Positions 47,286 to 63,331 of a stretch of DNA of 64,000 bases are shown here, in pieces; position 1 is the stretch's first letter; each line of letters begins with the position of its first letter. Location: the NCBI GenBank assembly GCA_938021675.1, contig CALIFY010000020.1, positions 1-64,000 of the forward strand, in the 5' to 3' direction. The notes under the pieces were generated by a model that ran no database searches, had not been told where the DNA came from, and was given only the letters and a program-made list of their open reading frames with translations. This DNA comes from an uncultured Acidimicrobiales bacterium (lineage in GTDB: Bacteria; Actinomycetota; Acidimicrobiia; Acidimicrobiales; SZUA-35). A program made the position numbers and the translations under genes.

Positions 47286-48434
47286 ATGAGACCGGATTCG
47301 ACTCTCGTCGCCATCGTTAAAGGTGAACCCGTCACCTTAGACAGTTCGAGAGTCTCGGAGCTGCTTGATCAAGCAGTTGAGCACCGGGTTTTGGGATCGA
47401 TACGCAATTCGTTGAATTCGGGCCGACTAGAGGTCAAGGAAGAAGCTGCGGTTCACTCATTTCTGACGGCACAAGAACTACGGATTGACGCACGCACGAA
47501 GAAACACATGAAAGCAGCACGGCACGCCATCAAACTACTTCAAGCCGCCGGCTGCGACGTAGCGGTATTCAAAGGCTCTTGGTCGATGCACGTTTTGTAC
47601 GACAGACCGACTGACCGAGTAACCAGCGATCTAGATCTATTTGTTGAACCATCCTGGAGAACAAGACACTCTGACATCGCCAATCTATTCTTGCCAACTG
47701 AAACCGAACCAGACAAAAGAGATTCACAAGGCAATCAACCCGGTATTTGGACATTCAGCACCAAGGATCTTGACGTAGACCTTCACACCAACCCGTTCGG
47801 CACAATGTTTGAACTAGACAACGACACCCTCCATCACATCTGGAACGAGCACACGACCAAGGGTGAAGATTTTCTGTCGGGAGCACGCGTCCCATCGCTG
47901 GAACTTGCCCTGACCCAGGCATTGATCAACTACTGCAAAGATCGGTATGCCTGGTTGTTCCAGATGGAAGAAGTGCGACGTCTAACACTCCACCCCGATC
48001 TGGACTGGGATCGGTTCGACCGACTCGTCGAGCTTGCTGGAACAAAAAGGGTAGTCGATGCATCACTCCACTCAGTTGCGGAGACCTTCGACCTTCGCAT
48101 CGCAAACAGAGCGGGGAAACCTTCACCCCTTCTCCTACCCTGGACGGCTCCACGAATGACCCTTCGCGGGCGACGGTCACGGTGGCTGAAAGGGCGCCGA
48201 CTTATCTTCGGCCTGCTTACTTTCGACAGCTGGCGGACTGGCTTGACCAAGCTTCGACAGTGGTTCGCTCCAGACGCCACCGTTCTTGGCGCTCACCTCA
48301 GAGCCGTTGGCGAGCGCGATGACCGCGGGTACTGGCATAGTTTGGCCTCACTTACAGTGCGTCGAGCAAAACGGTTGACTCCCCCAACATCCTCATTCCG
48401 GACTGGCAAACCGACGATCGGACGCTCGAGGTAA
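47286..48434 (+). CDS. Nucleotidyltransferase of the NTP_transf_5 group (lasso cluster)
   Basis: The 382-residue protein has the nucleotidyltransferase motif VAVFKGSWSMHVLYDRPTDR followed by TSDLDLFVEPS, with paired Asp as metal ligands. A second Asp occurs in DLDVDLHTNPFG. This is the PF14907-like family, often found in lasso-peptide loci of the paeninodin type. Its role could be nucleotidylation of the peptide or of a sugar, and it is not known. It opens a plus-strand run and overlaps the next gene by three bases at the TAATG. Base composition drops relative to the upstream genes. Confidence 0.85.
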   Translation: MRPDSTLVAIVKGEPVTLDSSRVSELLDQAVEHRVLGSIRNSLNSGRLEVKEEAAVHSFLTAQELRIDARTKKHMKAARHAIKLLQAAGCDVAVFKGSWSMHVLYDRPTDRVTSDLDLFVEPSWRTRHSDIANLFLPTETEPDKRDSQGNQPGIWTFSTKDLDVDLHTNPFGTMFELDNDTLHHIWNEHTTKGEDFLSGARVPSLELALTQALINYCKDRYAWLFQMEEVRRLTLHPDLDWDRFDRLVELAGTKRVVDASLHSVAETFDLRIANRAGKPSPLLLPWTAPRMTLRGRRSRWLKGRRLIFGLLTFDSWRTGLTKLRQWFAPDATVLGAHLRAVGERDDRGYWHSLASLTVRRAKRLTPPTSSFRTGKPTIGRSR

Positions 48435-48820
48435 TGACAGCGAACAACCCGTCAAACATCCTGGAAACCGCCTCACCTTCGATCACCCAGGCGCTTGAAG
48501 CAACGATGTGGTCAGTCTTGGTTCGATGCCTACTGAAAACACTGTCGATGAAGCGTTCTCTAACTATTCTCAGCTGGTTTCCTAAATCGCGCCGAGCGGC
48601 AATGAACGTATCGGTCCCGACCGAAGGTCATTTCCGACGAGCTGGAGCGTGCCTCGGCCGACAACTGGCGCGCAGCCAGTACATCCGCTCACATGGCGGC
48701 GAGTCAACAATTCTCATCGGTGTCATTCCCACCAAGGGTTCGTCGCTGGATGCTCACGCATGGCTTGATCGACTAGACGAACTCGGGCCGCACCAGGTCT
48801 TACATCAGATCCACCGGTGA
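48434..48820 (+). CDS. Lasso peptide B2 leader peptidase (transglutaminase-like)
   Basis: The 128-residue protein has the lasso B2 active-site pattern: Cys in GACLGRQLARSQYI, then IGVIPTKGSSLDAHAWLDRLDE with His and a following Asp. The B2 protease removes the leader peptide of the precursor together with B1. The size is near the usual 130-150 residues, and the N-terminus is hydrophobic in part (TMWSVLVRCLLKT). The GTG start of the cyclase overlaps its end by four bases. Confidence 0.86.
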   Translation: MTANNPSNILETASPSITQALEATMWSVLVRCLLKTLSMKRSLTILSWFPKSRRAAMNVSVPTEGHFRRAGACLGRQLARSQYIRSHGGESTILIGVIPTKGSSLDAHAWLDRLDELGPHQVLHQIHR

Positions 48821-50430
48821 AAGAACTTGAAATGACCGAAACGTCCTCACCCCACGTTGTGAAATCCGAGCGAGGTGGCGTGATAGCCACCACTTCTGCA
48901 GTTCCGCCAGATCTCCTGTCCGCTGCAGTATGCGCGGCACCGTGGCGTGGATCGCTCACCTTCCAGGAGTCGATTTCGGGCTCGACCATAGCAGCGACGG
49001 GCAACGCTGATATCTGGACAGAAGCACGCTGGCTAGCGGTCTGCCATGGCTCAATCACTAACGGCGAAGAAGCGGCTGAGCAGCTCGGATGCTCGTCGAC
49101 CCATCCGGCAGCGCTAGTCGCTGCGGCATTGAACCCGGACATGCAGCGACCGTCGCTTCTCCGGGGAGCCTTTCGTGGCGTAGCGGTCGACAGCGTTACG
49201 GGAGAGGTTCGAGCCATCCGCTCACTCGGCGGGGCCCGCGGCTTGGCCCACTCTGTGGGGACCAAAGGCATCGCTGTTTGCGCAGAGCCGGAACAGGCAG
49301 CAATCCTGGCCGGTCATGGCTGCCAGCCTGATCTGACCGTGATCGAACGCTACCGAAAGGGCTATTTAGGTCGGTCGGATTCCTTTATCAGCGGCGCCGA
49401 TTGGCTCCTGCCTGGCTCATGGATGATCGCTGATTCTTGGTCATTCTCGATATCACTTTTTGACATCTACGTTCCAGTCAAGAGACGACCGGCTGAACAA
49501 GCGGTCCTGGAGGTGACCGAGACCATCGACCGGGCAGTTGGCCGTGCGATTTCCGGGGCGAAGTCCGTTGCATCGCTGGCGACCGGCGGTCTCGACAGCT
49601 CCTCATTGATTGGATTTGCCGCCCGACGACGACCAGTCGACCTGGCCCTGACTTCTCGGGTGTACGGCCTCGCCGATTCCGCCGAAGAAGCCGAACTAGC
49701 GGAGTCGTCACTCGCTCCGGTCGTCCGAGAGCACCGCATCATCGATCTTACGATCGAGGACTTGTTTGAAAAGTCGGCGAGTTGGCTTTCAGTCACAGGC
49801 CCACCGGGTGTACTAGTTTTCGGCCTGATGGAAGCCGGGTACTCGGCCGCTGCCGAGGCAGGAGCCGATGTTGTGATGGACGGCATTGGAGGGGACCACG
49901 CGTTTAGTTTCGATCCGGTTGCCGAAGCCATCACTGAACGTCGCTGGACGCTATTGCCGCGACAGTTCGTTCGCAGGCCACGCGGTTCAATACGACGAGC
50001 AACCGATGCCACCATCCGCCTCATTGGGTCCGACCAACGACACAACGCTCGACTTTCTCAGCGGTTACGGGAATGGGCAGTCCACGCAGACGCCGTTGCC
50101 AGGAACCGGTACGCTGCCCACCTCGATATTAGACTCGAATGTCCTTACCTCGACGAGGACGTGTGGCGGGTAGTAGCCGGAGTTCCTCCAATGCTACGCC
50201 TGCACCGACGAGGCCTTCAACGGCAGGCGATTAGGTGCGTTGTGCCGCATGCTGAGACATCAATTAAAGCGATGTACGGTGACGCCCAAGAGTCATATTT
50301 CGGAGTCCGGGGACCCGATGCCTCAAAGCGAGCGGCCCTCTTCTTCACGGAAAAATGGCTGCGGGCCCCTCAACCGAGAGACCCGCAGCCGCATCCCACA
50401 AGTGATCGCTCACCAGCAGGATCAAACTAG
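48817..50430 (+). CDS. Asparagine-synthetase-like lasso cyclase (C protein)
   Basis: The 537-residue protein has a degenerate N-terminal glutaminase-like domain without the initial Cys, and a C-terminal ATP-pyrophosphatase domain. It carries a PP-loop SLATGGLDSSSL (about residue 252) and DVVMDGIGGDHAF. Lasso cyclases adenylate a carboxylate and form a ring amide. In this cluster the candidate precursor has no acidic side chain in its core, so the true acceptor is unclear. Starts are GTG 48817 or ATG 48832. Its stop overlaps the end of the opposite-strand precursor gene by four bases. Confidence 0.88.
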   Translation: MKELEMTETSSPHVVKSERGGVIATTSAVPPDLLSAAVCAAPWRGSLTFQESISGSTIAATGNADIWTEARWLAVCHGSITNGEEAAEQLGCSSTHPAALVAAALNPDMQRPSLLRGAFRGVAVDSVTGEVRAIRSLGGARGLAHSVGTKGIAVCAEPEQAAILAGHGCQPDLTVIERYRKGYLGRSDSFISGADWLLPGSWMIADSWSFSISLFDIYVPVKRRPAEQAVLEVTETIDRAVGRAISGAKSVASLATGGLDSSSLIGFAARRRPVDLALTSRVYGLADSAEEAELAESSLAPVVREHRIIDLTIEDLFEKSASWLSVTGPPGVLVFGLMEAGYSAAAEAGADVVMDGIGGDHAFSFDPVAEAITERRWTLLPRQFVRRPRGSIRRATDATIRLIGSDQRHNARLSQRLREWAVHADAVARNRYAAHLDIRLECPYLDEDVWRVVAGVPPMLRLHRRGLQRQAIRCVVPHAETSIKAMYGDAQESYFGVRGPDASKRAALFFTEKWLRAPQPRDPQPHPTSDRSPAGSN

Positions 50431-50528
50431 GCATTTGGGTTCGGGTTGTTACCTTGCGAATTACTCGACAAAGTAACGGTCTTAAGCTTTCCTAGCTCAC
50501 GTACTGCGGGCTTTGTGTATTCGTTCAT
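50427..50528 (-). CDS. Lasso-family RiPP precursor with acid-free core (33 aa)
   Basis: This 33-codon gene is read on the minus strand, with GAGGAG 7 bases before its ATG. The leader matches the YxxPx(L/V)xxxGxxxxxT recognition motif residue for residue: Y4, P7, V9, G13 and T19, where T19 is the conserved -2 Thr. If cleavage follows residue 20, the core is SSNSQGNNPNPNA. This core begins with Ser, has six Asn and two Pro, and lacks Asp or Glu at positions 7-9 or anywhere. A normal lasso macrolactam is therefore impossible unless another carboxylate, such as the C-terminal one, is used. The gene overlaps the cyclase end and is divergent from PqqD/B1. Confidence 0.8.
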   Translation of the reverse strand: MNEYTKPAVRELGKLKTVTLSSNSQGNNPNPNA

Positions 50529-50626
50529 ATCATTCTCCTCAAATTTGCCTGGTGGGCGTTCGGCTAATATTTTTGGTATCCCACCTTGCGAACAACCACC
50601 ATACCATTCCGCAGGACATGATGTTC

Positions 50627-50649
50627 ACTAAGGCTCGGCGAGCCTTAGT
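50627..50649. promoter_or_regulatory. 23-bp near-perfect palindrome upstream of the precursor
   Basis: ACTAAGGCTCG (50627-50637) and CGAGCCTTAGT (50639-50649) are exact reverse complements around one base. It lies about 99 bases upstream of the precursor ATG, in the gap shared with the B1 gene. It could be an operator or a terminator without T run. Confidence 0.7.
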
Positions 50650-50716
50650 CAATTCAGCCCAAAGGTAGAACCGGTTAGAAGCTCTAAAGACATCATGATA
50701 TATCTATCTTGTTATT

Positions 50717-50746
50717 GCATGTATCTTGATGTATTTGAATGTACGT
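50717..50746. promoter_or_regulatory. Three 10-bp-phased direct repeats (ATGTAT/C), likely operator
   Basis: ATGTAT at 50719-50724, ATGTAT at 50729-50734 and ATGTAC at 50739-50744 are spaced exactly 10 bp apart, so they fall on one face of the helix. The region around is AT-rich. A TTGTTA (50709-50714) is followed 17 bases later by TATTTG (50732-50737), which could be a plus-strand promoter for B1. Phased repeats suggest cooperative binding of a regulator that controls the divergent genes. Confidence 0.6.
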
Positions 50747-50860
50747 TGGCCTGCCACCGGCATCTCTACCCATATTTGCCAGTCAACCACTTGCTACCAT
50801 TGCGGCAAGAAAAGCAAACGTGCAAGCTACTAAAATGCCACAAAATGAGAGGAGCAGGTC

Positions 50861-51160
50861 TTGCGAGAGCTAGATTCCCAATATTCACTAGCAGGCCCTC
50901 GGGTTACCTCACAGAGGGTCTCCGCAGCCGAAACTATTGTCCTCGACCTTGAGTCCGAGCGCTATTACACTCTGAATGAGACCGGCACCAGGATCTGGGA
51001 TTGTCTAGCGGAAGGCAGCTCGCTCGACAACCTTGCAAAACAGATCGCCGACGAGTTCCGCGTACCAAAACCAATGGTGTCGAGCGACATGGTTGAGATG
51101 CTAGATGACCTCGTCTCGGCTGGACTACTTGAGAGCGCCACGCAACCCCAAAGACGATAA
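50861..51160 (+). CDS. PqqD-family leader-binding protein (lasso B1)
   Basis: The 99-residue protein matches PqqD/RRE domains: ETIVLDLESERYYTLNETGTRIWDCL and the C-terminal helical part (LAKQIADEFRVPKPMV, VEMLDDLVSAGLLE). Such B1 proteins bind the leader peptide and deliver it to B2. It starts with TTG 50861 with AGGAG 7 bases before. It begins the second plus-strand run, followed by the ABC gene after 9 bases. Confidence 0.88.
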   Translation: MRELDSQYSLAGPRVTSQRVSAAETIVLDLESERYYTLNETGTRIWDCLAEGSSLDNLAKQIADEFRVPKPMVSSDMVEMLDDLVSAGLLESATQPQRR

Positions 51161-51169
51161 AGGCGAGCC

Positions 51170-52975
51170 GTGACAGCCTCAATCGGACTCGCCACAGCGA
51201 TCAAGAGAGTAGTGACGGCGGTAGCCAAGAGTTCACCGAAACGGTCTGCGCAAATCGTCTCTTGGCAGCTTGCGGGATCACTTGCATCCGTAGGGCAGCT
51301 GCTGGCCATTCGAGAGCTTGTCTCATCCGTCAACTCAACTCCACCCGGACCCAGTTTGACCGACCTCGTGCCCGTATTGACCGTGCTTTCTGTTTCTGCG
51401 CTGGCGTCAACTCTTGCTACGGCAATGCTTATGGAGATGCGATGGTTGCTGGCCGAAGACCTAGGCCGCGAGCTCAGAGGGGCCCTCGCCGGCATCGCCA
51501 GTAAAGCGAAGCAGCATCATCTCGACGATCCCAGTCTCCACGACCGAATTCGGATCGCTCACGACACAATCGTCCAACGAGTCGACACGTTCGCTTGGGC
51601 AGTTCTGCGAACCGGGCTTGGGGGTTTAGGAATTCTCGCCATCGGACTTGTACTAGTCCGGGTAACACCGTCTGTGTTGCTAGTAGTTGCGTTAAGCAGT
51701 ATCCCCGTACTTGCCGTGTCACGATACAAAAGTCAGGTGCTTTTTCAGTTCTTCTACAAAGAAACCCCGGCGGACCGTCGCCGCGACTACTTGGAGGGCA
51801 TGCTGTTCGATCGGAGAGCACTAGCAGAACTGATAGCTCACGGAGCTAGGCCCCTCATAGTCGAATGTGTCGATCAGATGTTTGCTGACCGAGTGGAACG
51901 GGCGCACAAGATCTACCGTCGACGCTTGCCCGCCGTTGTATTGGGCGCTGCGACCTCGGTGGCCGGTCTTGCTATCGCGCTTGGCTCACTCTTGTACCTG
52001 ATCGAGACCGACAGTGTGAGCCTTGCCGATGCAGCGGTTGCTGCGTTGGCCCTCCACCAACTGAGGTCACGAATAACGACATTCACCATCGGTATCGAGG
52101 AAATGCAGCAAGCAGCTCCGTTCATTGGGGTAATCGACGGGTTACGGACCGAGCTATCAGACGAACACTCGCCTCCCGCTATAGAGCCCGTTCCCTGGCT
52201 TGAGCAACTGACTATCGCTGACGTCTCGTTCAGCTACCCTGGCGCAAGCGTTCCAGCACTGACCGAAATTTCCATGACCCTGGAACGGGGTACCGTTGTG
52301 GCCTTGGTGGGTGAGAACGGAAGCGGCAAAACGACACTGGCAAAGCTGGTAGCCGGCCTGTACCAGCCGACGGCAGGTCAGATTCTTTGGAACGAAACCC
52401 CTCTCAAGCAAGTGCTCGATACGGGTCTCCCTCTTGTCGCTCAGCAATTTCAGGATTTCAACCGTTACGAGCTTTCCGTACTCGACAACATCACGCTGGG
52501 TGACCCGACAATACCGGCAGATCATGAGAAGGCTGTGAGGGCCGCCCACGCTGCCGGTGCCGCCGAGTGGATCGAACAACTACCGGACTCGTACGAGACG
52601 GTGGTTTCGCGGTCACTATCGGAAGGGACGGAGCTGTCGGGCGGACAGTGGCAACGACTCGCCCTAGCCCGAACTATTTACCGGCAGGGCACGGTTGTCG
52701 TCCTCGACGAGCCGACTGCAGCTCAGGACCCAATTCGAGAAGCCGATCTCCTTCGGCGGGTCAAGGCGGCCTTGTCCGATTCAACTGTTCTGCTCATCAG
52801 CCATCAGCTCTCTGCAGTCCGTTGGGCAGACACTATCGGCGTGTTGAACGACGGCTGTCTGGTTGAATGGGGCAGCCACGAGGAGCTTATGGCCGAAGGC
52901 GGCCGATACCAGACCATGTTCAATCTCCAAGCTTCACGATACGCGACCAGCAACGACGCGTTTCACAAACCATGA
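51170..52975 (+). CDS. ABC exporter of the lasso cluster
   Basis: The 601-residue half-transporter has a membrane domain (about residues 20-320, six hydrophobic segments, though the first is preceded by a hydrophilic stretch) and an NBD. The NBD has Walker A VALVGENGSGKTT, signature ELSGGQWQRLALAR, Walker B VVVLDEPTAAQDP and a switch His in ISHQL. In lasso loci the D transporter exports the mature product and gives self-protection. GTG start at 51170. Its stop overlaps the kinase start (ATGA). Confidence 0.88.
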   Translation: MTASIGLATAIKRVVTAVAKSSPKRSAQIVSWQLAGSLASVGQLLAIRELVSSVNSTPPGPSLTDLVPVLTVLSVSALASTLATAMLMEMRWLLAEDLGRELRGALAGIASKAKQHHLDDPSLHDRIRIAHDTIVQRVDTFAWAVLRTGLGGLGILAIGLVLVRVTPSVLLVVALSSIPVLAVSRYKSQVLFQFFYKETPADRRRDYLEGMLFDRRALAELIAHGARPLIVECVDQMFADRVERAHKIYRRRLPAVVLGAATSVAGLAIALGSLLYLIETDSVSLADAAVAALALHQLRSRITTFTIGIEEMQQAAPFIGVIDGLRTELSDEHSPPAIEPVPWLEQLTIADVSFSYPGASVPALTEISMTLERGTVVALVGENGSGKTTLAKLVAGLYQPTAGQILWNETPLKQVLDTGLPLVAQQFQDFNRYELSVLDNITLGDPTIPADHEKAVRAAHAAGAAEWIEQLPDSYETVVSRSLSEGTELSGGQWQRLALARTIYRQGTVVVLDEPTAAQDPIREADLLRRVKAALSDSTVLLISHQLSAVRWADTIGVLNDGCLVEWGSHEELMAEGGRYQTMFNLQASRYATSNDAFHKP

Positions 52976-53835
52976 TCTGCCCTCCTACTCAGACCGTCTC
53001 GATTTATGGCCTGAAGCTGGTTCTTCCATTTGATGCACCGTGTGGATTAGGCCGGATCGATCCGAACGGCGGCTGCCATCCGGCCGAGCGGACCATCACT
53101 TTTCGGTCCGGCAGCATCGATCCGATCGATGTGCCCAGGTGGGATTCAGCCGACGAAAGTAGGATTCTGATCGACCGACGTGGAGCGTCGACAGTGGTTT
53201 CGTTCGGCGACGATCTGTTGGAGCTGAGCGGTACTGACGTGTCTTTCAGTACGAACCGGCCAACCGAAATGCTCGATCTCAATTACAATCCATTGTCAGC
53301 TCTCATCTTACCTCACGTCCAGATGGTGGCCTTTCACGCGTTCGTCGTAGATACTCCATGGGGAAGACTCGCTGTGACCGGCGAATCAGGCGCAGGCAAG
53401 ACCACACTTGGCCGAGAGTTTCTGACCCGCGATGGCAGGCTCGTCGCTGACGACCTGTTAGCACTCGACGCAAGCGGGCGGGCCCATGACGGTCCGCCGT
53501 TCATCAGAGTGGTAGAGGCAGATAGGGTCAAACAAGATATTGGCGGCAAACACCGCCGGATAGAGCCACCGGGCCACCGGGAGGCAGCACCGATCGACGT
53601 ATACGTCGTACTTGATGACGTATACAAAACGCCTACACCGTTGGAAGCAACGGACGCTCTTGACGCAATCCTTTCTCGGCCATATTCACCAGCGGCCAGC
53701 ACTCGAGAGGAAACTCTTCTTCGCCTGACCACGCTGTTGAAATCGCTGGCTAGCGCCACCGTTCTCGGGCTGCCCTGCCGGTGGCGACCGCCCGCACACC
53801 TCGCCGATACCGTTACAACGTATATCAATCGGTAA
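52972..53835 (+). CDS. HPr-kinase-like peptide kinase (PadeK-type)
   Basis: The 287-residue protein has the P-loop LAVTGESGAGKTTLGREFL and downstream RLVADDLLALD, as in HPr kinase/phosphorylase C-terminal domains. Homologous kinases in paeninodin-type lasso clusters phosphorylate the precursor peptide at a Ser. Here the putative core has Ser at positions 1, 2 and 4 but ends with Ala, so the target site may differ. It starts at ATG 52972, overlapping the ABC stop. The ORF is open upstream to 52867, but that part does not align. Confidence 0.85.
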   Translation: MICPPTQTVSIYGLKLVLPFDAPCGLGRIDPNGGCHPAERTITFRSGSIDPIDVPRWDSADESRILIDRRGASTVVSFGDDLLELSGTDVSFSTNRPTEMLDLNYNPLSALILPHVQMVAFHAFVVDTPWGRLAVTGESGAGKTTLGREFLTRDGRLVADDLLALDASGRAHDGPPFIRVVEADRVKQDIGGKHRRIEPPGHREAAPIDVYVVLDDVYKTPTPLEATDALDAILSRPYSPAASTREETLLRLTTLLKSLASATVLGLPCRWRPPAHLADTVTTYINR

Positions 53836-53988: not shown

Positions 53989-54765
53989 TCAACCTCTATT
54001 CCAAATCGAAAAATCTAGGTCGGGATAGAGGCATTCCATACGTTTTCGGTCTTCGGCAAACAATTCTCTATACTTCGTCCGCCATTGCCGACCTTCAACC
54101 GCCCCAGTTTGCGTGCTACGATTTACACTTAGGTCGACATCTTTTGGTACGAACTGACGCTTGCCGAGATGTTGGATAGCATCATCGTACAATTGCTGGA
54201 AGTTACTACAACATTCTTCAAGCAACTGCACTTTTACTCTTTCTCTTCCCACATTGTTGAGGAGCATATGAAGCTGCAAGCCGTACATTGATCGCCAAAT
54301 CATATCACTACTAATGCCGCGCCTTCCTCCCAAGTAACGTTCATTCCGATAAGTCAAAGCAGATTCCACACGACTAAACGGGTTCCGCAGCAAGACCAAA
54401 AACTTCGTCGACTCTGGCAATAGCCTCAGAAGCATGAAGACGTCGGGTCGTGCCAAATACGATGGCGACCACTCCCCTCGGCAGAGTCCATCGTCTTCGA
54501 ACTGCCGACTGTACAACTCAAGGAGATCCGTACCGTTCTGTCCGCTCCTGTCAAGAATATGAAGCTCCTTGTTTTGTGAGCGTGGTCCGCCTATATCAGG
54601 ATGCTGCAACAGCATATTGAACCACCACGTGGTGCCACAACGTTGGGCCCCCAAACCCACGAATGACGGAAACACTGGCGCGTCAGAGACACGCGAGTAC
54701 CACTCCTGCCGAACTCGTCGGTAACCATAATGACACTTAGTACTTCGCAGCAATTTCCGCATCAA
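53989..54765 (-). CDS. Sulfotransferase (PAPS-dependent)
   Basis: The 258-residue enzyme shows the PAPS 5'-phosphosulfate loop VGLGAQRCGTTWW and the 3'-phosphate site VLLRNPFSRVESAL. It has a nucleotide-binding fold length typical of carbohydrate sulfotransferases, and no signal peptide. It is the last gene of the polysaccharide operon on the minus strand, overlapping the preceding glycosyltransferase (ATGA). It converges on the lasso cluster, with 153 bases between stops. Confidence 0.88.
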   Translation of the reverse strand: MMRKLLRSTKCHYGYRRVRQEWYSRVSDAPVFPSFVGLGAQRCGTTWWFNMLLQHPDIGGPRSQNKELHILDRSGQNGTDLLELYSRQFEDDGLCRGEWSPSYLARPDVFMLLRLLPESTKFLVLLRNPFSRVESALTYRNERYLGGRRGISSDMIWRSMYGLQLHMLLNNVGRERVKVQLLEECCSNFQQLYDDAIQHLGKRQFVPKDVDLSVNRSTQTGAVEGRQWRTKYRELFAEDRKRMECLYPDLDFSIWNRG

Positions 54766-55916
54766 CTTTCAACCACACTCTCCGTCGGCAGTTTCAACAA
54801 CCCACCAAAGACTTTTCGATAATCCTCCATGATCTGGTCGTGCTGCCACGACGCGAACATCGACTCATCCAAGGGCCCCTTTGGGTCCTTCGTCCTCAAC
54901 ACGTCAACAACTTCATCAACAAACGACTCCTCCTCGAACAATGAGACCGAACGACCGAAGCAGCCCATCTCGATAAGTTCCCGAACGCCATCCACGTCGT
55001 ATGAAACAAAGGGGGTCCCCACCATGGCAGCCTGGACCAGAACCTGAGGCAACCCCTCAGCAGCTGTCGGCAACATCAACACGTCAGCCGACCTCATCAG
55101 TTCCGGCACACGAGTGGAATAACCAAGAAACCGAACATCGACATCAGGCAACACAGCCGATGCCCGCTCCTGATGCTCCCGCAAGGGGCCTTCGCCAGCA
55201 ATCAACAGAACGACTTGCCTTCCAATCTTCTCTGACACCGACTCCGCGATGGCCACCAAACGATTTGCACCTTTTCGCTCAACGAGCGAGCCCACAAACA
55301 ACAGCACAGGCACAAGCTCATCAAGACCGAATTCGCGTCGATAGCCACCCCTAGGCTTTGACCTCTCAGCGAGGAAGCGATCAGTTCCACAGTATGATCG
55401 AACAACGCTACATCGATCTCGGGAGACTCCAGCCGCCTCAAGCCGGACCGCGAGGTCCACACCAACGGCGACATAACGACTGACGTTATCCGAACCCAAA
55501 CGTTCGACTAGTCGAAACCCTCTAGACTTTATAGGAGTGTATCCGGGGCCGGAACTTGCCATCGATTCCGACTGAACAAGTTTCGGCTTCCACCCTCGGC
55601 CAATCATCGACATTCGACCGATAGCACTAGCCTTAGATTGATGTGTCACAACTACGTCAGGCCGACAACGCTGGATGTGTTTTCGGAACCATACCAACGA
55701 TGCAAGATCTCGCCAGATGTTTGGGTTCCGGGAGAGAGACGGACAAATAGCCACGTCAGCGCTTCCAACTGCGCCAACCAGACGCTTGACGTCACTGTGC
55801 GGTCCGGTGACGATCGAATGACGAAAATCAGAGCCGAGGGCGTTCTGCATATCCAGAAACCGCTGCTCCGAACCGCCGTCTGTGAACCTTGTCATAAGAT
55901 GGGCTATATGCAGCAT
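54762..55916 (-). CDS. Family GT4 glycosyltransferase
   Basis: The 384-residue protein has a GT-B fold. The N-terminal domain reads MLHIAHLMTRFTDGGSEQRF, and the C-terminal domain has LLFVGSLVERKGANRLV, IAGEGPLRE and the EX7E-like motif LPTAAEGLPQVLVQAAMVGTP with GVRE. The sugar transferred is unknown. It starts at ATG 55916, inside the end of the ligase gene, which extends to 55828. Confidence 0.88.
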   Translation of the reverse strand: MLHIAHLMTRFTDGGSEQRFLDMQNALGSDFRHSIVTGPHSDVKRLVGAVGSADVAICPSLSRNPNIWRDLASLVWFRKHIQRCRPDVVVTHQSKASAIGRMSMIGRGWKPKLVQSESMASSGPGYTPIKSRGFRLVERLGSDNVSRYVAVGVDLAVRLEAAGVSRDRCSVVRSYCGTDRFLAERSKPRGGYRREFGLDELVPVLLFVGSLVERKGANRLVAIAESVSEKIGRQVVLLIAGEGPLREHQERASAVLPDVDVRFLGYSTRVPELMRSADVLMLPTAAEGLPQVLVQAAMVGTPFVSYDVDGVRELIEMGCFGRSVSLFEEESFVDEVVDVLRTKDPKGPLDESMFASWQHDQIMEDYRKVFGGLLKLPTESVVES

Positions 55917-57141
55917 TTGTGACCTTCGTCTTATTGTTAGACAGAACATAAAATATTATCGACATTATTGCAATGCGGAATATTGTTACTGGCAGTAGAC
56001 CACTACTTGATACAAGTTGAGTAGTCAGCAGTGCGAGCATGGAGCCACTCACCCATACACGCTCACAACTAGAAGCGCGAGAGGAATACACAAAGTGACA
56101 GGCGAATAGGATTACCATCAGTGAACCAAGAAGGCCAAGTTCTATTTGCATTTGCAGGAAGGCATTGTGGACTGAATCGTGCTCAAAATCGACGCCTGCA
56201 CCAGTGGCGCGATAGTTGTCAAACACATTTGGCGTTTGGCGGAAGCCATGCCCAATCAGAGGCTCGGTCAATATTGCATCTAAAGCTGTAGGCCAGATGG
56301 TGTCCCGGTTATTTAGATCACCCACACCCTGGGATTGCAGTCGTGTTCCGACAGACGCTGCCCCAAGCGCTAGAATCGCTACCGGAACACTCACCAGGAG
56401 CGCTGCGATTCGAAAAGCTCTTTTTTCTCCTCGAGACGTGAGGTGGATAACCATGAATACAAGACTGGCCATCAGGTAAGACCTGGATCCCGAAATCGCT
56501 ACAACTGACAGCGATACGATCGAAATCGCGATAGCTCTTCGCAAATTCTCATGAATCGAATACCATCCGAAAATGAGAAAGATTAGACCCAACTGAGCGA
56601 AAGTATTCGGATGAGAAAAAAGGGATCCTGTCCGGCCAAGTGTCCCTGACGACTCCCCGCCAACCAACAACCAAATTGCGCCGATTACGATTCCGAATAG
56701 CGCGGAACCTTTCAGCGAGCGACGGACCGCCAACCAACCGGCCTCCGTTCGAATTAATAGCAGAATAGCAAAGAGGGAAATACAATCCGACACTGCTCGG
56801 AATATGACCATTCCACTTAATGTCCGAACGGCTTGGGTTAACTCCAAGGCAAAAAATGCGAGAATGAAAACACGGCTGATACCGAAAGATCGCTCGCCAT
56901 GAATCAAACTCAGGTTGCCAGACCATCCAATGTGGGCGACGAGCAAGATGAAAAAGAGAGTAGACAGTCCGATAGCCGACATTCGCACTTGAACAGCCGA
57001 AAGGAAGCCCACACCGAATCCCACTCGAGTTGCCACAGATGAACCGATGGCAATCGTAAGAAGGCCCGAAGAAAGATTTGCCCGTCCGATATGACCTTCT
57101 GCAGCTCCATCAAACGAGATCAACACGACCTCGACTTCCAT
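55828..57141 (-). CDS. O-antigen ligase/polymerase-like membrane protein (Wzy_C)
   Basis: The 437-residue protein has about 10-11 hydrophobic segments and the Wzy_C-type loop NRDTIWPTALDAILTEPLIGHGF followed by HDSVHNAFLQMQIELGLLG with the conserved His. It is either the polymerase or the ligase of the polysaccharide. Start chosen at ATG 57141, which overlaps the flippase by 32 bases. The 3' end overlaps the following glycosyltransferase. Confidence 0.82.
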   Translation of the reverse strand: MEVEVVLISFDGAAEGHIGRANLSSGLLTIAIGSSVATRVGFGVGFLSAVQVRMSAIGLSTLFFILLVAHIGWSGNLSLIHGERSFGISRVFILAFFALELTQAVRTLSGMVIFRAVSDCISLFAILLLIRTEAGWLAVRRSLKGSALFGIVIGAIWLLVGGESSGTLGRTGSLFSHPNTFAQLGLIFLIFGWYSIHENLRRAIAISIVSLSVVAISGSRSYLMASLVFMVIHLTSRGEKRAFRIAALLVSVPVAILALGAASVGTRLQSQGVGDLNNRDTIWPTALDAILTEPLIGHGFRQTPNVFDNYRATGAGVDFEHDSVHNAFLQMQIELGLLGSLMVILFACHFVYSSRASSCERVWVSGSMLALLTTQLVSSSGLLPVTIFRIAIMSIIFYVLSNNKTKVTNAAYSPSYDKVHRRRFGAAVSGYAERPRL

Positions 57142-58411
57142 TCGTAGCGACAAACCGGGTGTTCTCGGTTCGAAGTAGAACGAGAGTGTAAATCGCAGCC
57201 ACAAGAACAAGAGCGCCTGTCGACACAGTAGCCGCACCCAGCACTCCGTACGCTGAGACCGCAGGTTCTATTGCCAACAGTGACAACAGCAAAGCGATGG
57301 CCGGTGCGCCAAAGCGGACCCACCCTTTACCTTTAATTGCAAGCAGCGGCCTGATTATTCCAGACGACATTCCAGCCGCGGTTCCTGCCATCATTATCAG
57401 AGCAACGTGAACTATTGCAACTTCACTAGCTGGCGCTCCAACAAGTAGTTCGAGTACTTGCTTGCCGAAGATAAGAGTAACAACGGCCAACGCAGCAATC
57501 GGCAGACAACTAATCAGCCAGGCTTCGCCGACTAGTCGACCCACATAGGGAGTACTTGGGTAGTCGACCTCACGTCGAGCAGCTGCGCCCAGCGTGAGTT
57601 GTGAGAAAACCATTGCTAGCACGTTGAGCAACCGCAGAATGGCGACCAAAGAAATTAGAATCGTTAAAGCTGTCGGGCCGGCCACGGAGCGAGTCACGAG
57701 CCGAATAACAAGAAGCCGAATGGAGACCAGGATCGATCCTAGTGAGATTGTTGCGCCGTGGCTCATGATAGAAGCGAGTCCCCACTCCGATACGCCTGCA
57801 TGACCGCCAACACCACCTATCCAAACGTTCGACAGCCGTCGACGCTCGGCGACTAGGGTGACCGCCAGGTTCGCTAAACCTGCAATGGTTAAAGCGAGTA
57901 GGACGTCGGATCCTGCAAATAGCAGGACCCAGTAACACGCCAGCGCTGCCGCACCTCGGGCTATTGCTGTGCGATGGTGATCGACTAGTCGTCCCGACCG
58001 GCCACACCAAGCGAAACCAAGGTCGGCGATGCCATCGGCCCACTTCGTGGGCATCCAGGCCAATCCGACGAAAAAGACCGTCGCGCCCTGGGCGTATCCA
58101 AGTATCGAAAGGGTGACGATCGAGCCGATGACAAGACAAAGTGTCCGCAATATCAAGATTGTCCAGTCACCAAATTTGGTCATTCGCGGGTAGTTCGCGA
58201 TCTCGCGAAATCCAAACTCGAGCGCATTGAAGACTGGACCAGCAACACCCACGCACAAGGTGATCGCCTCGAGATCAGTTTCGGAGCCGAAGATTCGGGA
58301 ACCGGCGATTGCGGAAAACATATATGAGATAACAAGCGATCGCGCCGCTAGCGTCGCGATCGAATCAATGGCGCGTCTTAGCGCTCCGGACTCAGAAGGC
58401 CGAAACACCAT
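57110..58411 (-). CDS. Polysaccharide flippase (Wzx/MATE-like)
   Basis: The 433-residue protein is almost entirely hydrophobic, with roughly 12 membrane helices, for example LCLVIGSIVTLSILGYAQG and AWLISCLPIAALAVVTLIFG. It lacks family motifs, as is usual for Wzx-type flippases. It would move the lipid-linked repeat unit across the membrane. Start chosen at ATG 58411, 16 bases after the preceding sulfotransferase stop. Confidence 0.78.
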   Translation of the reverse strand: MVFRPSESGALRRAIDSIATLAARSLVISYMFSAIAGSRIFGSETDLEAITLCVGVAGPVFNALEFGFREIANYPRMTKFGDWTILILRTLCLVIGSIVTLSILGYAQGATVFFVGLAWMPTKWADGIADLGFAWCGRSGRLVDHHRTAIARGAAALACYWVLLFAGSDVLLALTIAGLANLAVTLVAERRRLSNVWIGGVGGHAGVSEWGLASIMSHGATISLGSILVSIRLLVIRLVTRSVAGPTALTILISLVAILRLLNVLAMVFSQLTLGAAARREVDYPSTPYVGRLVGEAWLISCLPIAALAVVTLIFGKQVLELLVGAPASEVAIVHVALIMMAGTAAGMSSGIIRPLLAIKGKGWVRFGAPAIALLLSLLAIEPAVSAYGVLGAATVSTGALVLVAAIYTLVLLRTENTRFVATNGSRGRVDLV

Positions 58412-58427
58412 CTGGAGCCTCAATGTT

Positions 58428-59351
58428 CTAGGACATTTCTCGAGTGGCACGGGATCGTCGATGGTGACCTACCCGCCTTAGCACTCGTCTGGTGCCGCCA
58501 GCCGTCACCATCCACGCAGCCTCTCCAACTGTATCGAGCGTCCGTTCCCACCGACCAGCAAGCGATTGTGGATAGATGGGTTGGTAACCAAGCGACCGCA
58601 ACGTTGGGCCGGCAATTGATTCGAACTGCCTCGTCTCGTCGGAGGATAAGGTCCTCCGCCAACCGTCTACTCGATCCAATCGCGGATCGCCACCTACCAG
58701 AGAATGCTGTTCCTTAGTATATTCGCCAATAGTCGGCTGGGCGGTAGGACGTTTCGGCCCGCTGCCCGACATGACACCCAAGTCGGACAGGACATTCTCG
58801 GGCGCGGCCTGATCGAGCAACATTCGCTCGAATCTTACTTCGGCGAAGCGATTTGAACCACGGGCCAAAAGACCGGGAGCGATCGAACTTTCCCACCAAG
58901 TAGCCGCTGACATGGGCTTACGAGGACCCCACTCAAGCGGTCTAACACTAGAGTAAACGGCCCGCCCATCACGAAGAACGTGCACGAAGAAGGAGTTCGG
59001 GAAGTTTTCTGCCAACAATGATCGATACCGCAAGTTCCATGGACTGGACTCCACAATCACCGCATGACCTGTAGCAGGGACGACTGTTGAGGCCAGTTCT
59101 CTTATCACAGCCGCTGGAGGCAAACCTTGAAGCAAGGTGAGTTTGCGCCGCAGCACATCGACAGGAGTAGGCCAAGTAGTCAAACGCCAGTCCTCCATTA
59201 CGGCGCGACTGAAGTCACGATATCCACCAATAAGGCTCCGCACGATGAACTGTGACTCAGGCAAGCAAATTCCTCCTGCCGCATTTGCTATCTGCCGCGC
59301 AACGAATGTAGTGCCTGATCGCTCACAGCCACCCACAAAAATGAAAGTCAT
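58428..59351 (-). CDS. Sulfotransferase family protein (second)
   Basis: The 307-residue enzyme has the PAPS loop FVGGCERSGTTFVARQIA at the very N-terminus and VHVLRDGRAVYSSVRPLEWG as the 3'-phosphate site. It fits the PF13469-type sulfotransferases found in bacterial polysaccharide loci. It overlaps the preceding glycosyltransferase gene by four bases and has a basic C-terminal tail (RRVLRRVGHHRRSRATRE). Confidence 0.87.
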   Translation of the reverse strand: MTFIFVGGCERSGTTFVARQIANAAGGICLPESQFIVRSLIGGYRDFSRAVMEDWRLTTWPTPVDVLRRKLTLLQGLPPAAVIRELASTVVPATGHAVIVESSPWNLRYRSLLAENFPNSFFVHVLRDGRAVYSSVRPLEWGPRKPMSAATWWESSIAPGLLARGSNRFAEVRFERMLLDQAAPENVLSDLGVMSGSGPKRPTAQPTIGEYTKEQHSLVGGDPRLDRVDGWRRTLSSDETRQFESIAGPTLRSLGYQPIYPQSLAGRWERTLDTVGEAAWMVTAGGTRRVLRRVGHHRRSRATREMS

Positions 59352-60379
59352 TTTCTTTCAGACGTCTCGGTCGACTGCTTGCCCAACAAGTTGTTGTAGA
59401 GCGATGCGAGGGTCTCTGTATTACTTTCGATGCTATAGGGCTCCGCAGCTCGCTGACCTTGAACAGATCGTTTTAACCATGCAGCCTCGTCCATACCCGC
59501 CACCTTCAAAACCTGGTCTGCAAAGTCGTTCGGAGTCGAGCGCAAGGGCAGTAAATCTACTGCATCGCCAGCGACCTCTGGGATAGCACCAACGCTCGTG
59601 GCAACCACAGGTGTACCGAGTGTCATAGCTTCGACTACGACATTACAGAACCCTTCATGACGGCTAGCAACAACGACCACGAAAGATTCCTTCATTGCGT
59701 TTTCCACTACATCTCGATCAACTAGACCTTCAAACGCAACTCGACTGTCAACGCCTAAATCACTAGCCAGATCCCGTAGAAATTGATTTTCGGGACCATC
59801 ACCTAACACCCTAAGTCGAAAAGACGCAGGAAGAAGGACCATCATTCGAATAATGGTATCGACCTGCTTAGATTCCACCAGCCGGCCGACGGTAAGGATG
59901 TCGTATCCAGAAGGGCGAGCCTTTCGAGCAATAACTGGCCCAACATCAACACCGTTGTAGATGACGATCGCCTTTCTCGAAAGTAGGCGTGGCAAGCTGT
60001 CTTTGGTGGCCTCGGAGTTGCAAACCAGTATCTCAGCAAGTGAATGCTTCAAGAAATCCACGATTCGTCGACGCAGAGAGACGGAAGTAAACAAAGAGTG
60101 TTGAGACGCAACAACTCTCGCCCGCAACAATCTCGAAAGACTTCCAATGACAAGAGCTCTGTACCCGTGATGAAGATGCACTACGGATTTAGCATGACCT
60201 CTAAAGAGTGCCACGATTGTTTCTTGGAACGATAGTACGTTCCATTCATGTGGTGTTTTTTGAGAGTCTTTTCGCTTCCCACAAATATAGATCGGCTCAC
60301 CAACGGCCGACTGGACATGGTTGACCGATTGAAGTGGAATACTCATGGGACCAATTCGTCCAACTACCAAAAGAATCAT
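59348..60379 (-). CDS. Family GT4 glycosyltransferase (second)
   Basis: The 343-residue GT-B enzyme has an N-terminal acceptor domain (SVVHLHHGYRALVIGSLSRLLRARVVASQHS), a hinge (VIYNGVDVGPVI), and a donor domain with ILTVGRLVESKQVDTII, RVLGDGPENQFL and the EX7E motif SRHEGFCNVVVEAMTLGTPVVAT. It overlaps the sulfotransferases on both sides by four bases, so the three are translationally coupled. The donor sugar is unknown. Confidence 0.88.
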   Translation of the reverse strand: MILLVVGRIGPMSIPLQSVNHVQSAVGEPIYICGKRKDSQKTPHEWNVLSFQETIVALFRGHAKSVVHLHHGYRALVIGSLSRLLRARVVASQHSLFTSVSLRRRIVDFLKHSLAEILVCNSEATKDSLPRLLSRKAIVIYNGVDVGPVIARKARPSGYDILTVGRLVESKQVDTIIRMMVLLPASFRLRVLGDGPENQFLRDLASDLGVDSRVAFEGLVDRDVVENAMKESFVVVVASRHEGFCNVVVEAMTLGTPVVATSVGAIPEVAGDAVDLLPLRSTPNDFADQVLKVAGMDEAAWLKRSVQGQRAAEPYSIESNTETLASLYNNLLGKQSTETSERK

Positions 60380-61284
60380 GGTTTAAACTGAAATCCCTTT
60401 GAACCACTAATAGCAGTGATAGCTTTCGCTAAGAAGCGATTAGCCAGGTGAAGAAGCCCCGTCCGGAATGGTCCGGCTTCTTCGACCCAACGGACATCAG
60501 GCCGGAACTCGCCCCCGACGGCCTTGAAGTCGGTTCCACCAAGTTCATGCTCTCCGAATAGGCCATCCGTAGAACTAACGCTGGCGCCGCAAGGAATCTG
60601 AACCTTTTCAAGAGCCAACAAAACCACAGTTGGGTCAGACATGACGTCCTCGTAGTGCAGCACCGCCCGGCGCGCCAGCGGAACTTGCCGATATGCGGCG
60701 GCACACCGCAGTAGACCGATTGCGACCGCTAAATACCCTTGAAGCCACCCCCTAGACAACCCGCGCCGAAGCTTCGACGCCACCACGGCGATGGGATTCC
60801 TCACAACCCAGACAGTCAAAGTCGGCCACGCACCGGCATGGCCGAGCAGCACAAGCGGTTCGAGGACCTTTGTCGAATCGACGATTCCGCGCGTGTCGAG
60901 CTTGCGCTGCCCAGTCACCTTTTGCAACACCTCGGCGCGGCCTCCGAGGCGATTCCTCGACAAAGGACCGACAACAGGCAAGATCAGAGTGGTGCGGCGA
61001 ACCCACGAAAGGTCCCGGGCGCGAACACTCGGGCTATTTGCGAGATTCTGCTGAACTGTTGACCATCGATCGCATTTCTCAATCAGCAAGCCGCAAGCGC
61101 AGGTTTCAGTCGGTTCGAGCTCGCCAACACGACCCAGTTCACCCACGAACTCCAGGTCCGACGAGCTTTTGGCAAGGATACGACCGACAATCGTCGACCC
61201 AGACCGACTCAGGCCAAGGAGGTAAACATGGGGACGCGTTTTTACCCGGAGGGTATCGCATGAGCTATCCATTGGTAGAGGCAT
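60376..61284 (-). CDS. Sulfotransferase family protein (third)
   Basis: The 302-residue protein has the PAPS-binding loop YLLGLSRSGSTIVGRILA and a later VWVVRNPIAVVASKLRRGL as the 3'-phosphate site. Between them is TCACGLLIEKCDRW, a Cys cluster seen in some sulfotransferase families. The start is ATG 61284 or 61272, overlapping the epimerase stop. It is the third sulfotransferase in this operon, pointing to a multiply sulfated product. Confidence 0.86.
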   Translation of the reverse strand: MPLPMDSSCDTLRVKTRPHVYLLGLSRSGSTIVGRILAKSSSDLEFVGELGRVGELEPTETCACGLLIEKCDRWSTVQQNLANSPSVRARDLSWVRRTTLILPVVGPLSRNRLGGRAEVLQKVTGQRKLDTRGIVDSTKVLEPLVLLGHAGAWPTLTVWVVRNPIAVVASKLRRGLSRGWLQGYLAVAIGLLRCAAAYRQVPLARRAVLHYEDVMSDPTVVLLALEKVQIPCGASVSSTDGLFGEHELGGTDFKAVGGEFRPDVRWVEEAGPFRTGLLHLANRFLAKAITAISGSKGFQFKP

Positions 61285-62215
61285 ACCACTCCCAGAACAA
61301 CCTTACTCCCAGCGCTATACCGACCCTTGGTTTGAAAGCCAGTAGCGACTCCGCCTTCGAATTGTCGGCATAGGTCATCAACATCTCACCCGGTGGCGGT
61401 TTTGTCGGCCGGAGGTTAGCTTTGCCTCCAGAAACTAGCTCGAGCTCAGACACAAAGTCCGCCAAACTTACTGGATGTCCGCGACCCAAGTTGATTACGT
61501 CATACCCTAGAGCCGGCACCAACGCCGCACGAATACCATCGCAAATGTCCGTGACGTACGTCCAGTCACGAGACATGCCCGATCCATAATATGGAACCTC
61601 AGCACCAGTCAGAATCGAGTCGGCAAGCTTGAACGGCATCATGTCCGGACGACCTCGTGGCCCGTAGACGGTAAAGAATCGCAAGACAGTCGTGTGTAGC
61701 CCATAAACATCGAAATACGTCTTGGCTATCAACTCCGAAGCGCGCTTCGAAAAGGCATAGGGTTGCGGAGGATCGACTGCGGGGTCCTGCTCGTCAAAGG
61801 GTGTTTTTGGGCGATGTCCGTAGACAGACGAGGTAGAGGCCAATAGAACTCGGTCCGCTCCATTGTCTAGCGACTCCTGGAGAACATTGTGGGTTCCGAT
61901 GACGTTAGTTTCGATGTATTCGGCAGGTGACTCAATCGATGCGCGCACTCCGGCCTTGCCGGCCAGGTGGACGACGTACTTCGGTTGGAATTCGACAAAT
62001 ATGTCGCCTAGGGCAGCTCGATCGAGTACATCGACAGCCCAGACCTTTACACCGGCCCTACCGAGAGCTTCAGCGTTTCGACGTTTTGATATTGGTGAAT
62101 AGTAGGGATCGAAATTGTCGATCCCGACGACTTCATGGCCAGAATCTTGCAGACGTTCACATAGGGTCGACCCTATGAAACCAGCAGCACCCGTGACCAA
62201 TACAATGGAACTCAT
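61265..62215 (-). CDS. NAD-dependent sugar epimerase, probable UDP-glucuronate 4-epimerase
   Basis: The 316-residue SDR enzyme has VTGAAGFIGSTLCERL at the N-terminus, the active-site triad STSSVYGH and YAFSK, and the stretch AGKAGVRASIESPAEYIETN. This stretch is typical of UDP-glucuronate 4-epimerases (UDP-GlcA to UDP-GalA). Start ATG 62215, 127 bases after the sugar transferase stop. It would supply a uronic acid for the sulfated polysaccharide; the exact sugar is inferred, not proven. Confidence 0.85.
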   Translation of the reverse strand: MSSIVLVTGAAGFIGSTLCERLQDSGHEVVGIDNFDPYYSPISKRRNAEALGRAGVKVWAVDVLDRAALGDIFVEFQPKYVVHLAGKAGVRASIESPAEYIETNVIGTHNVLQESLDNGADRVLLASTSSVYGHRPKTPFDEQDPAVDPPQPYAFSKRASELIAKTYFDVYGLHTTVLRFFTVYGPRGRPDMMPFKLADSILTGAEVPYYGSGMSRDWTYVTDICDGIRAALVPALGYDVINLGRGHPVSLADFVSELELVSGGKANLRPTKPPPGEMLMTYADNSKAESLLAFKPRVGIALGVRLFWEWYASTNG

Positions 62216-62341
62216 TACATGTCCACCTGAACTTGAGAAGGCCATCCGAAAGTTGAGACACAAGGTTTAGACACCACATACCGATACTCAAGACGATCAG
62301 CCATGGCTCGGGGAATTAGGAGATCTACTGCAAGTTGAGTT

Positions 62342-63331
62342 CTATTCAATGCGCTGTGCCGGGTCGACCAACATCTGCGCTGTGCGCAGCAAGAGTGCAA
62401 GATTGACTGCGACCGACTGTCGTTGCGCGTAGCTGACATCCAGCATGACCCTCTGCCAGTGCGGCAGACGATTTCGGCCGCTTACCTGCCACAACCCTGT
62501 CATGCCTGGCTTTACCGACAACACGGTCCCCAAATCCGAACCGAACAACTCAACTTCGTTTAGGGGGATGGGGCGCGGTCCGACCAAACTCATCTGGCCA
62601 TTGAAGACGTTCCACAGCTGAGGCAATTCATCTAGGTCATACCTCCTCAGAAGCCGCCCCAATGGGGTTATTCTTGGATCACTACGAAGCTTCTGCGAGT
62701 GCTTCCAATCGGCCGCGTGTTGCGGGTCTTCAAGTACCTTTTGCAGTCGGACTTCTGCGTCTACATGCATGGTACGAAACTTGAGGCAGTGAAACGTTTC
62801 ACCAGATCGACCCATCCGTTCTTGAGAAAAGAAAACGGGCCCTCGATCGGTTAATCTCAAAATCAAAGCAATGCAAGCCACTACTGGCAAAACAGCCAGT
62901 CCGACCGAGACGGCGCCGATCACATCCAACACTCTTATGACAAAGCGTTTCCGACGTTGCCTTAGCTGCGGTTGTTCATTCCGAACCCGTTCCAGATGCG
63001 AGCCCGGTCCTGGCAGCTCCAGCGTCGTTGTGGCCGATTCAAGAAGGTCGCCGTGACTAGAGACAGCCACTCGGCCACGAGGCCGCTTACTTCCCTGCTG
63101 GTGCTCAGCTCGAAGATCGACGACGGTCGACTCCCGGATGTCGAGAAGAACATCTCGATCACCTTGTCGCTCGGCGACTGGCCATTGTGTTCGCTGGTTT
63201 ACCCGCAAGAAACTTCCTCCCGCTTGACCGAGCGCGCCAATCCAGGCCGAAGGCCTACCAACACACTCAATCGTTCCGATATTGAACCGTGCGATAACGG
63301 CGGCGCATCGCACTCTTTTTGGTTCGCCCAC
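62342..63331 (-). CDS. Bacterial sugar transferase (undecaprenyl-phosphate glycosyl-1-phosphate transferase) with atypical N-terminus
   Basis: The C-terminal 210 residues match PF02397: one membrane helix (IRVLDVIGAVSVGLAVLPVV), KFRTMHVDAEVRL, LRRYDLDELPQLWNVFNGQ with MSLVGPRP, and KPGMTGLWQVSGRN. This enzyme starts the lipid-linked repeat unit. The preceding about 120 residues are hydrophilic and unlike the usual four-helix/CoA-binding N-terminus, so the N-terminal region may have been replaced or lost. The GTG 63331 start has AGGAG only one base away, so the true start is unsure. It opens the minus-strand polysaccharide operon. Confidence 0.8.
   Translation of the reverse strand: MGEPKRVRCAAVIARFNIGTIECVGRPSAWIGALGQAGGSFLRVNQRTQWPVAERQGDRDVLLDIRESTVVDLRAEHQQGSKRPRGRVAVSSHGDLLESATTTLELPGPGSHLERVRNEQPQLRQRRKRFVIRVLDVIGAVSVGLAVLPVVACIALILRLTDRGPVFFSQERMGRSGETFHCLKFRTMHVDAEVRLQKVLEDPQHAADWKHSQKLRSDPRITPLGRLLRRYDLDELPQLWNVFNGQMSLVGPRPIPLNEVELFGSDLGTVLSVKPGMTGLWQVSGRNRLPHWQRVMLDVSYAQRQSVAVNLALLLRTAQMLVDPAQRIE

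Follow-up and report, generated by a model that had tools for sequence, protein, structure and literature searches.

Lasso cyclisation is described in reviews as closure between residue 1 and an Asp or Glu at core positions 7-9 (PMC9266682, PMC10368454). The locus analysed here raises the question of what a full set of lasso-type genes might do with a precursor whose core contains neither residue. It lies in the window, that is, the whole 64-kb stretch of DNA under analysis, which comes from an uncultured member of the Acidimicrobiales in the class Acidimicrobiia.

Gene content of the locus

Six lasso-type genes and an antisense ORF of 33 codons, all present within the window, were delineated by ORF calls and by comparison with Pfam and NCBIfam families:

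47286-48434, + strand: NTP_transf_5 nucleotidyltransferase-like protein, 382 aa (Pfam PF14907, E 1e-19; SDLDLF motif)
48434-48820, + strand: B2 leader peptidase, 128 aa (NF033537, 25.9 bits, cut-off 33; PF13471, 25.9, cut-off 26)
48817-50430, + strand: C, asparagine-synthetase-like cyclase, 537 aa (PF00733, E 1.1e-13; GTGA overlap with B2)
50427-50528, - strand: precursor A, leader MNEYTKPAVRELGKLKTVTL (residues 1-20) and core SSNSQGNNPNPNA (residues 21-33)
50529-50545, - strand: ribosome-binding site region of the precursor, Shine-Dalgarno AGGAG 7 bases before the ATG
50861-51160, + strand: B1, PqqD-like RiPP recognition element (RRE), 99 aa, TTG start (PF05402, E 3.2e-17)
51170-52975, + strand: D, ABC transporter permease/ATPase, 601 aa (PF00005, E 5.9e-30)
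52972-53835, + strand: HPr-kinase-like protein, 287 aa (PF07475, E 2.6e-4, under the cut-off)

The gene calls confirm each of the six enzymes and transporters named in the original prediction (NTP_transf_5, B2, cyclase, B1, ABC and HPr-like kinase), including the B1, B2 and C genes by which a lasso cluster is recognised. The six genes follow one another in the order NTP_transf_5, B2, C, B1, ABC, HPr-kinase-like on the + strand of a compact locus, with stop-start overlaps between NTP_transf_5 and B2, B2 and C, and ABC and the HPr-kinase-like gene. The mechanical ORF call begins the HPr-kinase-like gene at 52867, but the ATG at 52972, overlapping the stop codon of the ABC gene, is preferable as its start.

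Both family scores of B2 fall short of the cut-off, that for PF13471 just barely, and its active-site motifs are conserved (the Cys of GACL and the His of DAHAWL). B1 reaches 49 bits against NF033530 (lasso_PqqD_Strm), which is under the cut-off. When aligned with other cyclases, C displays the hallmarks of lasso cyclases, namely, the ATP PP-loop (S/T-GGxDS), the metal Asp and the C-terminal Lys, in the motifs TGGLDSS, GIGGDH and SIKA, respectively; it departs from them in the Thr that replaces Ser in the PP-loop and in the His after GGD. The HPr-kinase-like protein shares with its sisters, in alignment, the conserved H, TGESGAGKTT (GxxGxGK) and ADD (DD). The NTP_transf_5 protein is a PsmN/LppN-like tailoring enzyme, and sister copies are present in loci L097 and L111. 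The cluster is adjoined by a polysaccharide locus (53989-63331, - strand) that encodes several sulfotransferases, glycosyltransferases, a Wzy-like ligase, an epimerase and a sugar transferase.

Validation of the precursor

The antisense ORF at 50427-50528 translates in full as MNEYTKPAVRELGKLKTVTLSSNSQGNNPNPNA, and its stop overlaps that of C in a common CTAG. The bases upstream of its ATG, TTTGAGGAGAATGATATG, contain AGGAG. The leader conforms to the pattern YxxPx[LVI]...T(-2), with Tyr at -17, Pro at -14, Val at -12 and Thr at -2. Against a leader matrix constructed from 31 other Acidimicrobiia leaders, with the window leader left out, the precursor scored 32.0, within the training range of 30.5-48.7; the next best six-frame score in the 64 kb was 13.5, and the maximum over 30 shuffles was 19.9. 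The leave-one-out score and the shuffles rule out a chance ORF and, together with the Shine-Dalgarno sequence, indicate that the 33-codon precursor with its leader motif, as first proposed, is real. The NCBIfam model lasso_leader_L3 matches it weakly (15.8 bits, cut-off 19). The Tyr -17/Pro -14 spacing holds in the ungapped alignment of 21 leaders (A1) as well as in the clade leaders described below, and 17 residues from Tyr to the core start is the spacing reported for lasso leaders (PMC10368454); thus, the core start is not arbitrary.

A second precursor nearby, with Asp or Glu in its core, would have counted against the original prediction, as the latter acknowledged. None was detected in the window with the six-frame leader matrix or in its own genome, a 95% complete assembly of 99 contigs, with the general and clade leader models. 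The general model yielded a single strong match (E 2.2e-5, the remainder at about 0.85 or worse), and the clade model one match at E<=1 (E 3.4e-16); both of these values are flattered because both models contain the window row, which leaves the leave-one-out score unaffected. With one real leader match in the genome, no acid-bearing second precursor was found.

A rare cyclase clade and its sister clusters

Lasso-type loci were gathered by a B2 family search of the class, which returned 27 of 395 genomes, and their surroundings were fetched. Coverage comprised 39 genomes of the family and samples of the order and the class of about 300-400 genomes each. The window cyclase is single-copy in its own genome, was not found in the other genus members searched, and is rare beyond them, with one relative in the family (G005) and two in the order (G538 and G640). 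In a phylogenetic tree built on 23 cyclases, almost all of which come from Acidimicrobiia, the window C groups with L030 (G005), L059 (G538) and L111 (G640) with support of 100/99, a clade of four Acidimicrobiia genomes in which the window cyclase forms the longest branch (2.16 changes per column). The window proteins are 39-44% (B2), 34-37% (ABC) and 24-26% (C) identical to those of the sisters. A scan of public contigs with the single window cyclase recovered no relatives; the same scan with alignment A2 recovered only the clade's own public contigs, CALKGG010000079.1 and CALHCB010000044.1, and a distant Polyangiaceae cyclase. No relatives were found on plasmids or viral contigs, and no solved structure matched by sequence. 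AlphaFold prediction of C from a three-row alignment gave no usable model (pLDDT 31).

The G538 cluster is split between contigs C14 and C79, the ends of which overlap inside C. One strand carries B1, a 2OG-Fe(II) oxygenase, a family-25 glycosyltransferase and NTP_transf_5, and the other carries B2-C-ABC-kinase; two precursors are encoded, ...TL|ASTGSKGSPANPSGDENDEGNNPAEQP and ...TL|ASTGSQGQGKGDDNGVEEP. The G640 cluster contains B1, two oxygenases, a glycosyltransferase and an NTP_transf_5-like gene, with B2-C on the other strand, and a precursor ...TL|SSSASAGVGKGDDNGEEINPGGN. The 2OG-Fe(II)/PhyH oxygenases and the family-25 glycosyltransferase of the sisters (L097:1372-2660, L111:2552-4799) are absent from the window cluster. 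As in the window, polysaccharide genes with sulfotransferases border the G538 cluster. No precursor was seen on the G005 contig, which begins inside C. The clade consists of four members, one of them without a known precursor; the genomes analysed are mostly fragmented assemblies. Conservation of the 33-codon gene, the other point on which the original prediction could have fallen, is borne out by the sister clusters, where the leader and the core start are kept.

Core peptides without a ring acid

The window core of 13 residues contains no Asp or Glu at all and ends in Ala. Read-through of the TAG was considered as a source of an acid and rejected: it adds FDPAGERSLVGCGCGSLG and still places no acid at 7-9. 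An acid-free 13-mer is expected by chance with a probability of about 0.16, given the D/E frequency of other cores, and is thus not rare alone, so that the weight rests on the clade. The three sister precursors, from two of the clade genomes, have their first acids at positions 12, 12 and 15. Asp or Glu at core positions 7-9, by which a lasso product is recognised, is therefore absent from the window core and from all three sister cores, and, judging from these predicted cores, the acceptor rule is broken for a clade. What this clade has in common is the lack of an acid at 7-9 rather than of any acid; only the window core is wholly acid-free. The three sister precursors share the core start [AS]S...S[QKA]G, and Ser2, a second Ser and a Gly are kept across the clade.

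The first interpretation of the locus is partly borne out: its central point, that the canonical ring cannot form, is supported and gains strength from the sister cores, and the acid-free core of the window is confirmed. The support does not extend to acid-freeness as a conserved trait, as the sister cores bear acids from position 12 on, or to the "paeninodin-type" label considered below. To the extent that cores can be read from precursor genes, what is new here is a rare, well-supported cyclase clade whose known cores all lack Asp and Glu at 7-9. A search of one open-access library (titles, abstracts and term counts) found no paper on lasso cores without an acid at these positions.

Among the precursors on cyclase-bearing contigs of the class, 17 of 23 are canonical and 6 are not, 4 of the latter belonging to this clade. 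The remaining two are L051 and L037; the latter (VPGSIT) lies on a short contig. In L051 (7454-7624, - strand), the precursor lies near a cyclase, and the first and only acid of its core is at position 13. Locus L047 (11011-12817, - strand) has B1 and B2 close to three precursors of the lasso type, but no cyclase was detected there, and two of these precursors have cores with no acid at 7-9. Locus L036 (6912-7661, + strand) encodes a tandem array of seven small lasso precursors; their cores are short, and every one has Asp at 7, 8 or 9.

In L045 (10455-10592, - strand) and L040 (6163-6237 and 10462-10557, + strand), leaders ending in LTR are followed by cores of 3-4 residues (FSF, FSVV). L045 and one L040 copy adjoin NTP_transf_5-like, HPr-kinase-like, B1 and B2 genes, the first two called by reading the sequences, without scores, and no cyclase was detected. 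These loci possibly represent a cyclase-free phosphopeptide system in Acidimicrobiia. Given their acid-free Ser cores (FSF), the leader/B1/B2/kinase/NTP set seems able to do without a ring.

Proposed function and alternative explanations

The closest relatives, too, have no acid where it is normally found, so the function of this rare cyclase branch is probably not classical lasso formation. The best reading is a phosphorylated or glycosylated RiPP made by lasso machinery, in which the cyclase would either use a later carboxylate or no longer cyclise. We tentatively interpret the cluster as a lasso-type RiPP locus whose cyclase belongs to a small, divergent clade that closes a ring without Asp or Glu at core 7-9, a proposal we hold with somewhat less than even confidence. 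B1 would bind the YxxPxV leader and make it available to B2 as well as to the kinase; a core Ser, either the clade-invariant Ser2 or Ser4, would be phosphorylated and probably glycosylated by the HPr-like kinase and NTP_transf_5; B2 would cleave after Thr19-Leu20, the predicted cut site; and the ABC protein would export the product. C, which has the ATP site and the catalytic Lys, would, if it acts on the core, have to activate a carboxylate at position 12 or beyond. In the sisters this would be Asp12/Asp13 or Asp15, and in the window the alpha-carboxylate of Ala13. The outcome would be an enlarged or head-to-tail macrolactam. Modification of core Ser3 by a kinase and tailoring by an NTP transferase are known in related systems (PMC10368454, PMC9266682), and we infer from the examples of BsfK acting on Ser3 (PMC10368454), PadeK, PsmK and PsmN (PMC9266682) and LppK (PMC13381572) that Ser is phosphorylated and glycosylated here; any bond made by C is likewise a prediction. 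That all details hold, with larger macrolactams closed through a carboxylate at 12-15 across this Acidimicrobiia branch and a head-to-tail, Ser-phosphorylated 13-mer in the window, is rather unlikely. With first acids at 12, 12 and 15 in the sisters and none in the window, no single acceptor is conserved, which counts against ring closure of this kind.

Alternatively, the B1-B2-kinase-NTP module may produce a linear phosphorylated or glycosylated Ser peptide resembling the linear polyphosphorylated peptides (LPPs), with C vestigial or minor. The core of an LPP cluster is made up of a kinase, an NTP transferase, an RRE and an ABC exporter (PMC13381572), the cyclase-free L040 and L045 (leader + FSF) provide relatives with acid-free Ser cores within the class, and the window C is the longest branch of its clade; the long branch, the PP-loop Thr and the His after GGD fit either a changed enzyme or loss of the ancestral reaction. 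However, the 537-aa frame of C is intact, translationally coupled and open, with the PP-loop, Asp and Lys kept at very high divergence, as would be expected if an active enzyme were under selection, and LPP clusters are without C and carry a signal-peptidase-like protease, whereas the window keeps both B2 and C. We consider a linear product doubtful, though a serious contender. It is unlikely that the window precursor is instead a degraded or truncated copy that lost the acid-rich block of its sisters, in a decaying cluster or in one whose true precursor lies on unassembled DNA. The sisters' acid block does align to a gap in the window core, the assembly is in 99 contigs at 95% completeness, and no copy of the cyclase turned up in the remaining genus members searched; but the leader, Shine-Dalgarno sequence and stop are intact, all enzyme genes are open, B2 keeps its active-site residues at about 40% identity to the sisters, and the untruncated sister cores also have no acid at 7-9.

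A cut four residues later (ASTG|SQGQGKGDD, SSSA|SAGVGKGDD) would leave ordinary rings of 8 or 9 residues in the clade and only the window core odd. It would place Asp8/Asp9 in the second G538 precursor and in that of G640 (the GKGDD precursors), with Thr or Ser at -2, and GDD is present also in canonical L112 cores. We rate this as very unlikely: it requires Tyr at -21, against Tyr at -17 in ungapped leader alignments (PMC10368454), and would put the first acid of the other G538 precursor at 11 and leave none in the window. Finally, C might couple the peptide to another molecule, such as a polysaccharide or a second peptide, by an intermolecular amide. Polysaccharide genes with sulfotransferases adjoin the cluster in both the window and G538, and G538 encodes two different precursors; yet paeninodin and LPP clusters, too, are found close to capsule loci, to which no link is known (PMC13381572), and such conjugation appears extremely improbable.

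Returning to ring closure at a later carboxylate, a cyclase that acts on such cores would have a wider reaction scope than thought and could serve in macrocycle synthesis. If it leaves them untouched, the clade would be a step from lasso to linear phosphorylated peptides inside one enzyme family. A genome-mining filter that demands an acid at 7-9 would discard clusters like that of the window.

Comparison with known systems

The window cluster shares with the split-B1/B2 lasso systems (fusilassin-type machinery) the YxxPxL/V leader with Tyr -17 and Thr -2, B1, B2, C and the ABC exporter. It differs from them in that the clade has no Asp or Glu at core 7-9, the window core has none at any position, and the window cyclase is only about 25% identical to its nearest relatives. 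With phosphorylated lasso peptides of the paeninodin/pseudomycoidin type, it shares an HPr-like kinase (weak PF07475 match plus motif) and NTP_transf_5 (PF14907) beside B1, B2, C and ABC. In paeninodin, however, the leader motif is WxxP and the kinase acts on a C-terminal Ser (PMC13381572, PMC9266682); the window precursor has YxxP (YTKP), a C-terminal Ala and no ring acid, and its host belongs to Acidimicrobiia rather than Bacillota. The "paeninodin-type" label is too specific, given the YxxP leader and the lack of a C-terminal Ser. The Bsf type of Bradymonas sediminis is likewise a kinase-bearing lasso cluster, with a phosphorylated Ser near the core N-terminus (Ser3 in Bsf), but BsfA has Gly1 and Asp8 for the ring and Ile at -2. 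LPP clusters resemble the window cluster in the RRE, HPr kinase, NTP transferase, MsbA-like exporter, YxxP leader and polysaccharide neighbourhood; they are without C and have an SpI-like peptidase, whereas the window has C, and B2 is the only peptidase among its cluster genes. By its genes, the window locus is a lasso-type cluster, but by its predicted core it lacks the acceptor, and it is neither strictly paeninodin-type nor LPP.
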